Shown here piece after piece: positions 6,346 to 64,000 of a stretch of 64,000 nucleotides of DNA. This DNA comes from Pseudoxanthomonas sp. PXM02 (GTDB lineage Bacteria > Pseudomonadota > Gammaproteobacteria > Xanthomonadales > Xanthomonadaceae), in assembly GCF_014851805.1 (NCBI RefSeq), contig NZ_JACVAK010000001.1, positions 62,001-126,000 of the forward strand, given 5' to 3'. Under the pieces are notes generated by a model that was not told the origin of the DNA, made no database searches, and saw only the letters and a program-made list of their open reading frames with translations. Made by a program: the position numbers and the translations under genes. Numbering within the stretch: the first letter of the stretch is position 1; each line of letters begins with the position of its first letter.

Positions 6346-7014
6346 TCAGTTGTCGCCGATACGATTGATGCCGGTATCGAGCGTGCGGTCGTAGATGGCG
6401 ATGGCGCGTTGCACGGACTCGGCATGCCGGCTGAGCTCGATCAGCCGCTGTGTTTCCTCCGCAGCATCGACATTGGATTGCTCGATAGCGCCTTGCTGCA
6501 CGGTGCCGTTCCACGTCGCCGCGACACCGTCGTAGCGGTAACCGCCGTCGATCGGCCGCAAGCGGGACGGCTCTGCGACATCGACGAGCGCGAGCTGCGC
6601 CATGCGCTGGTCGCCTTGCCAGATGACTCCGGAGTCGTCGATACGTACGTCCTGTTCCGGCAGGATCAGCGGGCCCGCATCCGTCATCACCTCGTCGCCA
6701 GCCAGCGTGGCAAGCACACCATCGGCTCGGCGGACGAATTGTCCGGCCCGGGTGAGCAGCACCTCGTCGCCGCGCTTGATCTGGAAGAAGCCATCGCCAC
6801 GCAGTGCTAGGTCAAGCGAGCGCTCGGTCTGCCTGAGTGGACCGTCCTGCAATTGCACGTGTTGCGCCTGGCCAAGCGCGCTGGCGAAATCGGGAAGCAC
6901 GCGGACGCTCTGGAAACCTGGCGTGGCCAGGTTGGCGACGTTGTGGCTGACCGCGTTGAGGCCTTGCACGTCCGCGCCGAGAGCACGACTGATGGCCTGG
7001 ATGGTGTCGCTCAC
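6346..7014 (-). CDS. flgF: Flagellar rod protein FlgF
   Basis: This rod protein has 222 residues. The start is a GTG at 7014 preceded by a good AGGAG six bases upstream; upstream in-frame codons read through into flhA and are not FlgF-like. The motif LNAVSHNVANLATPGFQSV marks the flagellar rod/hook family, with LDLALRGDGFFQI and a C-terminal AIEQSNVDAAEETQRLIEL. It is shorter than usual FlgF (about 245-250). Order and length relative to flgG support FlgF. Confidence 0.9.
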   Translation of the reverse strand: MSDTIQAISRALGADVQGLNAVSHNVANLATPGFQSVRVLPDFASALGQAQHVQLQDGPLRQTERSLDLALRGDGFFQIKRGDEVLLTRAGQFVRRADGVLATLAGDEVMTDAGPLILPEQDVRIDDSGVIWQGDQRMAQLALVDVAEPSRLRPIDGGYRYDGVAATWNGTVQQGAIEQSNVDAAEETQRLIELSRHAESVQRAIAIYDRTLDTGINRIGDN

Positions 7015-61632: not shown

Positions 61633-62136
61633 TTACGGGCTGCCGGGCGCGCGGATCAACGCGTCGGTCAGTGCGCCACTTGCATTGAGGTTCTGGTAAG
61701 CGCCCAGCGTGTCGACGCCCACGTCGATGCGGGTGACCGTCCGGATATCCTGGTCGTCGAGGGTGTTCTGGATGACCAGACCACCGGCCGCCTGCGTGGG
61801 ATCAAAGTGGTTGCCGTCGCCGATCTGCACGACCAGTCCGCGATTGAAGTCGGCCAGCGCCTGCGCCTGTTCCGGCGTGATGCGCGCCACGTCGGGTATC
61901 TGCACCGCGATACGCGCGCTCAGTTCGCCATTGACGAACACGACACGCTCGATGCCGAACGACAGCATCATGCCCGACGGCATCTCGAATCCACCGCGCA
62001 TCTGCGCAAGGCGAGCGGGATCGACGGGTTGCCAGTCAGCGCCCAGTTCACCGGTCTGCCCGCGTGCGCCCACGGGCATCAACAACAGCGCTAACAAGCC
62101 GGTGGCGCACAACAGGCTGCACTTGTTGCCGTCCAT
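61633..62136 (-). CDS. FapE-like secreted protein with double-glycine motif
   Basis: The 167-residue exported protein (signal peptide ATGLLALLLMPVGARG) lies between the C39 peptidase and the FapF-like pore, the position of fapE. Residues 37-49 read VDPARLAQMRGG, with Gly-Gly at 48-49, Met -4, Leu -7 and Val -12: a double-glycine leader pattern. The rest is beta-rich (SGMMLSFGIERVVFVNGELS, GLVVQIGDGNHFDPTQAAGG, VIQNTLDDQDIRTVTRIDVG) and contains the VIQNT phrase also found in the subunit protein at 62839. Assignment as FapE rests mainly on position and these shared patterns. Confidence 0.65.
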   Translation of the reverse strand: MDGNKCSLLCATGLLALLLMPVGARGQTGELGADWQPVDPARLAQMRGGFEMPSGMMLSFGIERVVFVNGELSARIAVQIPDVARITPEQAQALADFNRGLVVQIGDGNHFDPTQAAGGLVIQNTLDDQDIRTVTRIDVGVDTLGAYQNLNASGALTDALIRAPGSP

Positions 62137-62137
62137 G

Positions 62138-62842
62138 TCAGATGTCTCCCGGACCGCGCCGTGGCACGGTGATGTTGCGCAGGCCGTCGCGCTGGATTCC
62201 CATGTCGAGCGGCGCCGGAGGTGCGGTCTGCCAGTCGCGGGCCTGGTTGAAGCGGGCGCGTTCGCGCCGGTTGTGCACGACGAACATCACCCGGTTGTCC
62301 CACAGCGCCTCGAATCGCGAACGCGGCATCGCGCGGGTGCCGCGCGCCGGATCGCCGAGCAGTACGCGTCCGTTGCGCAGCCCCTTCACCACGACGAAGT
62401 GGCGGTAACCACGGTCGTTGAGCAGCACGATGGCCGGCACGTTCTCTTCCTGCAGCTTGTCCAGCGGCAGTTCGAAGCCGTCGGCCTCATAGCCTTTCGT
62501 GCGCAGGTAACGCCGCATGTCGAGCAGCGAGAAGCCCTCCTTGCGGATCCGTGCCTGGTCGCCGTTGTTGTACATCTGCACGAACACGTCCACCTCGCTG
62601 ACGGGATGGCCGTACTGGTGCGTCAGCAGCGTCGCCGTCGCGGCCGAGCCGCAGCTGAAGTCGTACTGCTGCGGCAGCGTGGTCTTGAACCTGGCCTCCT
62701 TCAGGCTGGTCAGACGCACGTTGTAGGCACCACCCGGCACGCGCAGGTCACTGGTGGCCGCCGATGCGCCGCCCAGCCCGGCAGACGCACACGCCAGTGC
62801 GACGTAGACAGGCCAGCGCCAGGCGCGCAGGCGGCGTTTCAT
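62138..62842 (-). CDS. fapD: C39-family cysteine peptidase, FapD-like
   Basis: The 234-residue exported protein (signal peptide to about 28) is a stand-alone peptidase C39 domain. Catalytic residues are visible: Gln-x5-Cys in QQYDFSCGSAATATLLTHQ (Cys about 64), His in GYRHFVVVKGL (about 148) and Asp in LLGDPARGTR (about 164). C39 peptidases cleave after double-glycine leaders. Unlike bacteriocin exporters it has no ABC transporter domain. It overlaps the upstream subunit gene (ATGA) and sits where fapD sits in Pseudomonas fap operons. Its likely substrates are the two neighbouring secreted proteins with RLxxMRGG motifs. Confidence 0.88.
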   Translation of the reverse strand: MKRRLRAWRWPVYVALACASAGLGGASAATSDLRVPGGAYNVRLTSLKEARFKTTLPQQYDFSCGSAATATLLTHQYGHPVSEVDVFVQMYNNGDQARIRKEGFSLLDMRRYLRTKGYEADGFELPLDKLQEENVPAIVLLNDRGYRHFVVVKGLRNGRVLLGDPARGTRAMPRSRFEALWDNRVMFVVHNRRERARFNQARDWQTAPPAPLDMGIQRDGLRNITVPRRGPGDI

Positions 62843-63258
62843 TGCGGGCCGCCGGTGAAGTCGACGGTCACGATCATGGCGTTCTGGATCAGCACGTTGC
62901 TGCCGGTGTTCTGGATGACCGTGTTGATCCCGCTGGCGTTGTTGAACGCGCCGTCGGCGATGCTGTTGGAACCGCTGGTGATGTGGTGCGCCGTGTTGTC
63001 GTCCACCGAACCATCGATATCGATCAGGTTCTCGGTCTGGCTGGCGTCACCACCGCGCATGGTGGACAACCGGTCCGTCGCGATCGCGCGCCCCAGCTCG
63101 CTGATCGCCGCGATGGGCACGTCTGGCGTGCGTGTGTCGGCGAGGATCGCCGGCGGCACGTCGAGTATCGGGCCGACGTTCTGCGCTTCTGCGCCGAATG
63201 CGACGGCGTGAAGCCCGCAGGCTGCAAGCAGCAGCCCGGTCTGTTGGAGCGTAAGCAT
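62839..63258 (-). CDS. Fap-like small amyloid subunit with double-glycine motif
   Basis: The ATG at 63258 with AAGGAGA upstream gives 139 residues: a signal peptide (GLLLAACGLHAVAFG to AEAQ), a segment with ELGRAIATDRLSTMRGG (Gly-Gly at 69-70, Met -4, Leu -7, Ile -12), then an Asn/Ser/Ile-rich region with NSIADGAFNNASGINTVIQN and TGSNVLIQNAMIVTVDF at the C-terminus. The N-x-G-I-N-x-V-I-Q-N repeats resemble the strand motifs of Fap subunits (FapB/FapC), but it is far shorter than FapC. It is probably a minor subunit or nucleator. Confidence 0.7.
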   Translation of the reverse strand: MLTLQQTGLLLAACGLHAVAFGAEAQNVGPILDVPPAILADTRTPDVPIAAISELGRAIATDRLSTMRGGDASQTENLIDIDGSVDDNTAHHITSGSNSIADGAFNNASGINTVIQNTGSNVLIQNAMIVTVDFTGGPQ

Positions 63259-63335
63259 GGTCGGTCTCCTTGCCATGCGTCCGCCGCGCAGCCGTGCGGT
63301 GCCCCGCGTCCTGCGGGACACCGGCGCCCACGCGG

Positions 63336-63374: not shown

Positions 63375-64000
63375 TTACGGGCCTACGGTCAGGTTGGCCT
63401 GGACAGTGATGCCCTGCTGGATCAGCGAGGCCATGCCACTGTTCTGCGCGGCCACCATGATGCCGGCCGCGGACTGACCAACGCTGGTCATGTTGTTCGA
63501 CATGTCGAACGTACCCGCATCGACGGCCAGCGAACCGCCGGCACCGCCGGCGCCACCGGTCGCGCCGTTGCCGACGCCGCCATTGCCATCGCCGCCCATG
63601 CCGTCGCCGCCGTTGCCGACGCCGCCATCGCCACCGGTCGCACCGACCGCGCCCGCGGCGCCATTGCCTGCCGTCGCGTCACCGTTGCTGGCGCTCGAGG
63701 AGGCGCTGCCATTGGTCGCGTCGCCATTGTTGGCATCGCCACCATTGCCGCCGGTGCCGCCGGTGGCGGTCACGCTGCCGCCCGCGCCGCCCCAGCCATT
63801 GCCAGCGCCACCGGTGGCGGTCGCGTCGCCGCCCGTGCCGGAGCCTGCACCACCGGTGCCCGTCCCTGCACCTCCGGTTCCCGTGGCGTCACCCGAGGTG
63901 CCGTTGCCTGCGGTTGCCGTGCTGGTGCTCCCGGTTGCGGTTGCATCACCCGACGTACCTGCGCCGCCCGTGGCCGTGCCGGAGCCGCTGGTGCCGTCAC
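63375..64000 (-). CDS. Gly/Ala/Thr/Asp-rich repeat protein, probable major amyloid subunit (N-terminus outside window)
   Basis: The reading frame is open from the right edge to a TAA at 63375, giving at least 207 residues; the true start is beyond 64000. About 160 residues are low-complexity, with degenerate repeats around GDAT (SGDATATGS, SGDATGTGGAG, GGDATATGGAG, NNGDATNGS) and runs of GGxGG. The last 45 residues differ: DAGTFDMSNNMTSVGQS, AAGIMVAAQNSGMASLIQQ and a beta-prone VQANLTVGP. They resemble the end of the next subunit (VIQNTGSNVLIQ). As first visible gene before the FapD/E/F-like genes it takes the place of fapC, but its Gly-rich body is unlike Pseudomonas FapC. Confidence 0.7.
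   Translation of the reverse strand, partial: DGTSGSGTATGGAGTSGDATATGSTSTATAGNGTSGDATGTGGAGTGTGGAGSGTGGDATATGGAGNGWGGAGGSVTATGGTGGNGGDANNGDATNGSASSSASNGDATAGNGAAGAVGATGGDGGVGNGGDGMGGDGNGGVGNGATGGAGGAGGSLAVDAGTFDMSNNMTSVGQSAAGIMVAAQNSGMASLIQQGITVQANLTVGP

Follow-up and report, generated by a model that had tools for sequence, protein, structure and literature searches.

Among the described systems closest to the locus analysed here is the Fap amyloid system, whose C39 peptidase, FapD, acts in the periplasm (Rouse et al. 2017, PMC5557850; this and the other papers given by PMC number are cited from excerpts of their text). In that work the FapD mutation C38A abolished secretion of FapC, and mass spectrometry recovered no FapE peptides from the first ~70 residues. 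Its authors described the Fap proteins as being without a canonical C39 sequence and the FapD target as unclear, naming FapE as the most likely one (PMC5557850). The idea that FapD cuts FapE is therefore already published, in the excerpts of that paper without the site proposed below. A docking paper from 2023 has FapD modifying FapC (PMC10638192), a role for which the leader evidence presented here does not speak. For C39 domains of other systems, the leader consensus of PCAT1 is L-12xxxE-8L-7xxxxGG and the cleft at the cut site is described as very narrow (PMC6959990), while LahT needs leader positions -4, -7 and -12, and LahT150 tolerates changes of the leader Glu at -8 (PMC6363468). No later paper on a FapD substrate was found by title or abstract in the open literature searched, subscription papers and most preprints aside. 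As far as that literature shows, the site itself, a second substrate in the clade of the locus and the Arg/Lys form of the site in FapE appear to be new.

The window, by which we mean the whole stretch of 64,000 nucleotides analysed, carries an operon of a Pseudoxanthomonas-like bacterium that is best explained, with good confidence in the reading as a whole, as a Fap-type secretion system. All window genes discussed here lie on the minus strand and are transcribed in the order Gly-rich protein, small subunit, C39 peptidase, FapE-like protein and FapF-like pore (Table 1). The 3' end of the subunit gene shares 4 bases with the C39 gene, and 1 base separates the C39 gene from the FapE-like gene, so co-transcription of these three is very likely. 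An alternative GTG start at 63321 would lengthen the subunit to 160 aa. The FapF-like pore is presumed to be the exit for the processed proteins, and the Gly-rich protein, for which searches with Pfam and the Fap models gave no match, would perhaps be the main fibre subunit. By eye the Gly-rich protein, the subunit and the FapE-like protein resemble one another at their C-termini (roughly G....V.QN.G....IQ...I.V), and an iterated profile of the mature part of the FapE-like protein recovers subunits and also, though weakly, the Gly-rich protein.

Table 1. Features of the operon, in positions of the window; signal peptides of window proteins were assigned by eye.
Feature	Position	Strand	Remark
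FapF-like outer-membrane pore, 499 aa	60085..61584	-	NF058560 E=9.2e-45, 153.2 bits (cut-off 700)
FapE-like secreted protein, 167 aa	61633..62136	-	signal peptide, propeptide of ~22 residues, RGG, mature part
Leader core of FapE-like protein, V38-DPAR-L43-AQ-M46-R-G48-G49	61990..62025	-	predicted cut after G49
Stand-alone C39 peptidase, FapD-like, 234 aa	62138..62842	-	N-terminal signal peptide
C39 Asp164 codon	62351..62353	-	
C39 His148 codon	62399..62401	-	
C39 catalytic Cys64 codon	62651..62653	-	
C39 Gln58 codon	62669..62671	-	
Small secreted subunit, 139 aa	62839..63258	-	leader ~46 residues past signal peptide
Leader core of subunit, I59-ATDR-L64-ST-M67-R-G69-G70	63049..63084	-	predicted cut after G70
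Gly-rich secreted protein, 508 aa	63375..64000	-	runs beyond the window end (63375-64901; L038:4376-5902)

The initial annotation of this DNA had proposed that the two secreted proteins flanking the C39 gene share a leader of the double-glycine type. The residues that it named are exact (Gly-Gly at 48-49 in the FapE-like protein and at 69-70 in the subunit, Leu at -7, Met at -4, and Val38 or Ile59 at -12), and their spacing is indeed that of the leaders bound by the C39 domains of PCAT1 and LahT, with a hydrophobic residue at -12, Leu at -7, a hydrophobic residue at -4 and Gly-Gly in both proteins. The Glu of the PCAT1 consensus at -8 is Arg in both; it is present in 16 of the 32 rows of the group of sites that end in Gly-Gly. 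In all six frames of the window the motif L..M.GG occurs exactly twice, both times in the genes that flank the C39 gene. The same annotation had asked whether the Gly-rich protein carries the motif beyond position 64000, and its full 508 aa, extended past that point, hold no match to the leader pattern, nor does the FapF-like pore of the window. The predicted structure of the FapE-like protein was set aside because its mean pLDDT is 47.

The annotation's further claim, a stand-alone C39 peptidase with intact Cys, His and Asp, holds as well. The window enzyme matches PF03412 (E=2.2e-20, 73.3 bits against a gathering score of 22), has a predicted C39 fold, and carries Gln58, Cys64, His148 and Asp164, which are invariant across a 20-row alignment. 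It is a 234-aa ORF with a signal peptide only, not fused to an ABC transporter, and is 95% identical to the C39 of P. japonensis. Among 149 genomes of the family, the 31 with a FapE-like gene are the same 31 that have an adjacent C39 at an E value of 2.7e-98 or better; in 22 further genomes all C39s are more distant (E up to 1e-40). Eleven of the 149 Xanthomonadaceae genomes (G031, G765, G770, G775 and others) carry a more distant C39 in addition to one of the window type, both matching at 1e-40 or better; in G031 this second enzyme scores 260.8 bits on the FapD model. An apparent natural fusion of C39 and FapE (L030, CP060419.1) was dropped: the C39 is frameshifted in that complete genome.

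A short motif in Gly-rich genes of a GC-rich genome might arise by chance, and both the brevity of the motif and the base composition lend themselves to that explanation; its conservation excludes it, leaving it a negligible probability, and the window-wide count, a blind profile, shuffled sequences and the relatives all speak against it. A profile of the mature FapE-like protein, blind to the leader, found 61 downstream ORFs in 60 loci (a redundant set, 60 of the ORFs at E<1e-3), mostly from gammaproteobacteria, with one (L062) from another class of the phylum. RGG lies directly upstream in all 61, and position -7 is Leu in 60 and Met in one. The leader pattern gave 144 sites in 6,446 six-frame ORFs (1,144,693 residues), compared with 9.4 on average over 20 shuffled sets, and 137 of them stand beside a C39 gene on the same strand. 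By slot, 97 lie after C39, in the FapE position, 40 before it, in the subunit position, and 7 elsewhere, one of the last (L099) in a small ORF of a Fap-type locus. Two records labelled as alphaproteobacteria (L025 and L027) have MADEELEDARGG and LSNEELADLRGG in the FapE slot, by the pattern only.

Direct reading of relatives gives the same picture. Among the matches listed, 120 of 120 FapE-like relatives (346 found) have [LM]..xRGG, and in a 38-row alignment Leu43, Met46, Arg47, Gly48 and Gly49 are invariant. Lack of conservation in orthologues, which the initial annotation had named as the result that would refute its claim, was thus looked for, and the FapE-like site was present in every relative of the clade that was read. 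All 30 Xanthomonadaceae loci fetched have RGG in both the FapE-like protein and the subunit, a read-out that is not blind, because the model used to find these loci (A1) includes the leader. In five of these loci (L172, L173, L175, L176 and L182) the site of the FapE type was read by eye.

The subunit site is conserved over a narrower range. Among the matches listed, 120 of 120 subunit relatives (255 found) have [LM]..xxGG within their first 110 residues, and the subunit alignment, poorly conserved from the signal peptide to about residue 50, keeps RGG. Conservation of the subunit motif thus stands for the Xanthomonadaceae loci and does not extend to the whole clade: a short upstream relative is present in 31 non-redundant loci, of which 18 have GG, 10 have RAR, RAM, RAK, RGR, RGM or SGR and 3 could not be read, in a read-out that takes the best-scoring site and so favours GG and Arg at -3. 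The loci that lack GG keep Leu at -7, and in L066 and L101 a subunit with RGR stands beside a FapE-type protein with RGG. Either the enzyme tolerates such sites or the subunit is uncut there. The FapE-like protein could then be the only true substrate, with the subunit leader a remnant for docking or regulation whose cleavage is not required. The loss of Gly-Gly in those 10 loci with Leu -7 retained, the constancy of the FapE-like site in all relatives read, and a scan of 17 FapD-type loci that yielded no acceptable leader in FapB or FapC are all in keeping with this explanation; we nevertheless consider it unlikely, given RGG in the subunit of 30 of 30 loci of the window's family and xGG in 120 of 120 subunit relatives among the matches listed.

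A homologous site is present in FapE itself. The mature part of one FapE (L039), used as a profile, found 35 ORFs, 8 of them from loci whose C39 exceeds the NCBI cut-off for FapD (L039-L046) and the rest from relatives below it. All 35 have Leu or Met at -7 and Gly at -2; position -1 is Arg (25) or Lys (10), position +1 is Tyr or Phe, and Arg stands at -3 in 33. One example reads FKPIELKDQELATLRGR before the putative cut and YVMPGR after it, the frame of the leader being kept with Arg or Lys as its last residue. In a longer stretch around L039 (L134), FapA, FapB, FapC, FapD and FapE all pass their NCBI cut-offs (FapE with 346.1 against 250 bits), so the gene order can be taken as correctly read. 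An hhalign comparison of the two FapE groups gave a probability of 94.9% (E 4e-8) with the leader and 0.8%, not significant, without it, making the leader the best-kept stretch between these sequence groups. The comparison supports a homologous register of the FapE and FapE-like sites, although invariance at the filtered positions is partly by construction, because the FapE labels of the C39 loci came from a motif filter (Leu, Ile or Met at -7, Gly at -2, Gly, Arg or Lys at -1, hydrophobic at +1). The filter left -3, -4 and -8 free, though Arg at -3 broke ties, and four labels were set by hand (L030, L064, L074 and L058).

Since Arg or Lys replaces the last Gly in a homologous site, cleavage by FapD at this position, through an altered S1 pocket, is probable. 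Against it stands that Arg or Lys at P1 is, to our knowledge, foreign to known C39 enzymes, with their narrow cleft. An in silico trypsin digest of five FapE proteins reduces the leader to an 8-mer, GR or GK, and a peptide that begins in the signal sequence. Trypsin cuts after the same Arg or Lys, so the mature end of FapE would be indistinguishable from any tryptic end in the trypsin-based mass spectrometry of 2017, and the gap of ~70 residues, which extends past the proposed site at about residue 40, does not fix the site (PMC5557850). We lean towards the more general view that in all Fap-type systems a periplasmic C39 cuts a double-glycine-type leader behind the Sec signal peptide of FapE, that in FapD-type systems the site became L(S/K)DxELxx[LM]-R-G-[R/K] followed by [YF], and that FapD cuts after the basic residue, leaving a new N-terminus that is also a tryptic end and hence invisible to trypsin-based mass spectrometry.

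The 17 FapD-type loci that yielded no acceptable leader in FapB or FapC (L134-L150) were read again with larger flanks, in a scan that required a signal-like stretch and overlooked two FapE sites, those of L148 and L150, which the FapE profile had shown as L056 and L058. A few leader matches in FapC-type and other ORFs (for example in L141, L145 and L148) were judged to be chance. A FapA profile found 17 ORFs, 7 of which (L134-L140, all Pseudomonas-type loci) have L[SG]DxD[FI]xx[VI]x[SG]G. FapA, with LSDxD[FI]xx[VI]xSG in such loci, may be a further substrate of FapD or a decoy, and we treat this as a lead because FapA peptides were detected throughout the protein in 2017 (PMC5557850).

A leader-like stretch around [LIV]..xxL..[VI].G[RK], again with a basic P1, also occurs in small ORFs of Fap-type loci that are not of the Pseudomonas type (L141:2285-2729 and 6523-6997, in reverse-strand offsets, L142:3894-4251 on the plus strand, and others in L079, L119 and L128), several of these ORFs ending in ILWDE or LLWDE. 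Outside Fap, L112 has a stand-alone C39 with a bacteriocin-like ORF about 1.4 kb before it that reads IDTSEMDEVRGR and then FGPVGAAIGAITGAAG, a leader-like sequence with Arg at P1, and in L126 a bacteriocin-like ORF that reads LSDQEMKNTEGA followed by WFNFVSAGWGAVGGG is separated from a stand-alone C39 by about 2 kb.

The peptidases themselves bear on what the leader does. The 58 FapE-labelled C39s retain Gln, Cys, His and Asp, apart from a gap at the last two in one row. Gly103 and Leu107, which in our reading of the alignment correspond to the leader-binding A55 and I59 of PCAT1, occur in all 58 C39s that have a leader-bearing FapE and in 15 and 13, respectively, of 25 others. These 25, out of 83 non-redundant C39s, are mostly outgroup stand-alone enzymes, together with L128, which falls inside the FapD clade and showed no FapE, the fragment L132, and L097, which was removed by hand. 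The motif could be a binding signal and not a cut site, the C39 serving as a chaperone, like degenerate C39-like domains, or the leader docking on the FapF-like pore. In some type 1 systems C39-like domains bind but do not cleave (PMC5557850), and the last two residues of the site vary in subunits and are G-R/K in FapE. We think this improbable in view of the retained catalytic residues in the labelled enzymes, the abolition of secretion by FapD C38A and the absence of N-terminal FapE peptides in mass spectrometry (PMC5557850). In the C39 tree the enzymes of the GG type all fall on one side of a single branch (SH-aLRT 100), which amounts to one change. Tyr60/Thr, Ser66/Ala and Asn142/Asp (GG type/FapD type, window numbering) separate the groups, among many such columns, and since the split between Gly and Arg/Lys is that one branch, these differences are no independent test and are not counted as evidence; Tyr60 to Thr and Asn142 to Asp are only candidates for altered residues of the S1 pocket.

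Another target has been proposed. In the view taken of FapF in 2016-2017, the essential C39 substrate would be the linker of the pore, which has GG or GA (PMC5557850, PMC5135000). FapF-like ORFs of L172, L173, L175 and L176 have RARGG or RGRGG after the coiled coil and the window protein has RARGA, yet Leu at -7 is absent there and the leader scan of the window pore was without a match, which makes this target very unlikely. The stretch NEExLAxARARG[GA], or a variant, is kept after the coiled coil in all five of these FapF-like proteins.

We therefore return to cleavage of the leader in both secreted proteins. Conservation, spacing, neighbourhood, catalytic residues and the predicted fold are directly supported here, and it is likely that a Sec-exported C39 removes the propeptide after RGG from the FapE-like protein and the subunit before their export via the FapF-like pore. 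Both proteins would enter the periplasm via Sec and lose their signal peptides, each retaining a propeptide that ends in a C39-type leader (hydrophobic -12, Leu -7, hydrophobic -4, Arg -3, Gly-Gly). The exported C39 would bind this leader as a short helix in a hydrophobic groove and cut after Gly-Gly, and removal of the propeptide might then license the mature proteins for export or assembly through the pore. Such licensing is suggested by analogy with the Pseudomonas FapD and FapE mutants (PMC5557850). The initial annotation had offered cleavage as the role of FapD: the leader-cleavage reading is supported as a prediction from sequence, while the window peptidase is FapD-like only, with 133.9 bits against the cut-off of 330 of the FapD equivalog NF058616, and its FapE-like neighbour has no match to the FapE model. 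The finding is also broader than that claim, pointing to one shared candidate cut site for Fap-type C39 peptidases, with a basic P1 that is unexpected in the best-studied members. It suggests that the leader is a tag marking C39 cut sites that permit secretion of amyloid-type surface fibres. A precise, conserved candidate site in FapE makes the question of 2017 about the FapD target directly testable by a peptide assay, and its Arg/Lys form would explain why a trypsin-based search could not place the cut.

Of the known systems, the putative pilus system FilB/FilC resembles the locus in that the window C39 and FapF-type pore match its models (NF050078, NF050079), at 118.8 bits against a cut-off of 475; none of the five FilB-like loci that score best (L069-L073), all of them below that cut-off too, showed a leader in the FapE slot. 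The locus also departs from the canonical fapABCDEF operon. Up to E 0.1, the FapE equivalog NF058559 does not match the FapE-like protein, and the FapB and FapC models NF058557 and NF058558 match neither the subunit nor the full 508-aa Gly-rich protein, the two proteins encoded next upstream of C39. The scores of the window C39 and of the pore lie well under those required for FapD and FapF (for the pore 153.2 against 700 bits), and a Gly-rich upstream protein, RGG instead of RG[R/K], a second leader-bearing subunit and a C39 in a separate clade set it further apart. It nonetheless shares with Fap the succession of C39, FapE-type gene and FapF-type pore, and a homologous leader site in FapE. 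Compared with the PCAT/AMS enzymes (PCAT1, LahT, ComA), the window peptidase is a stand-alone, exported protein without an ABC transporter, and its predicted substrates leave the cytoplasm through Sec, which places the leader behind a signal peptide and, on this reading, its action in the periplasm. If this is true, the double-glycine leader moves from cytosolic ABC exporters to a route made of Sec and an outer-membrane pore.
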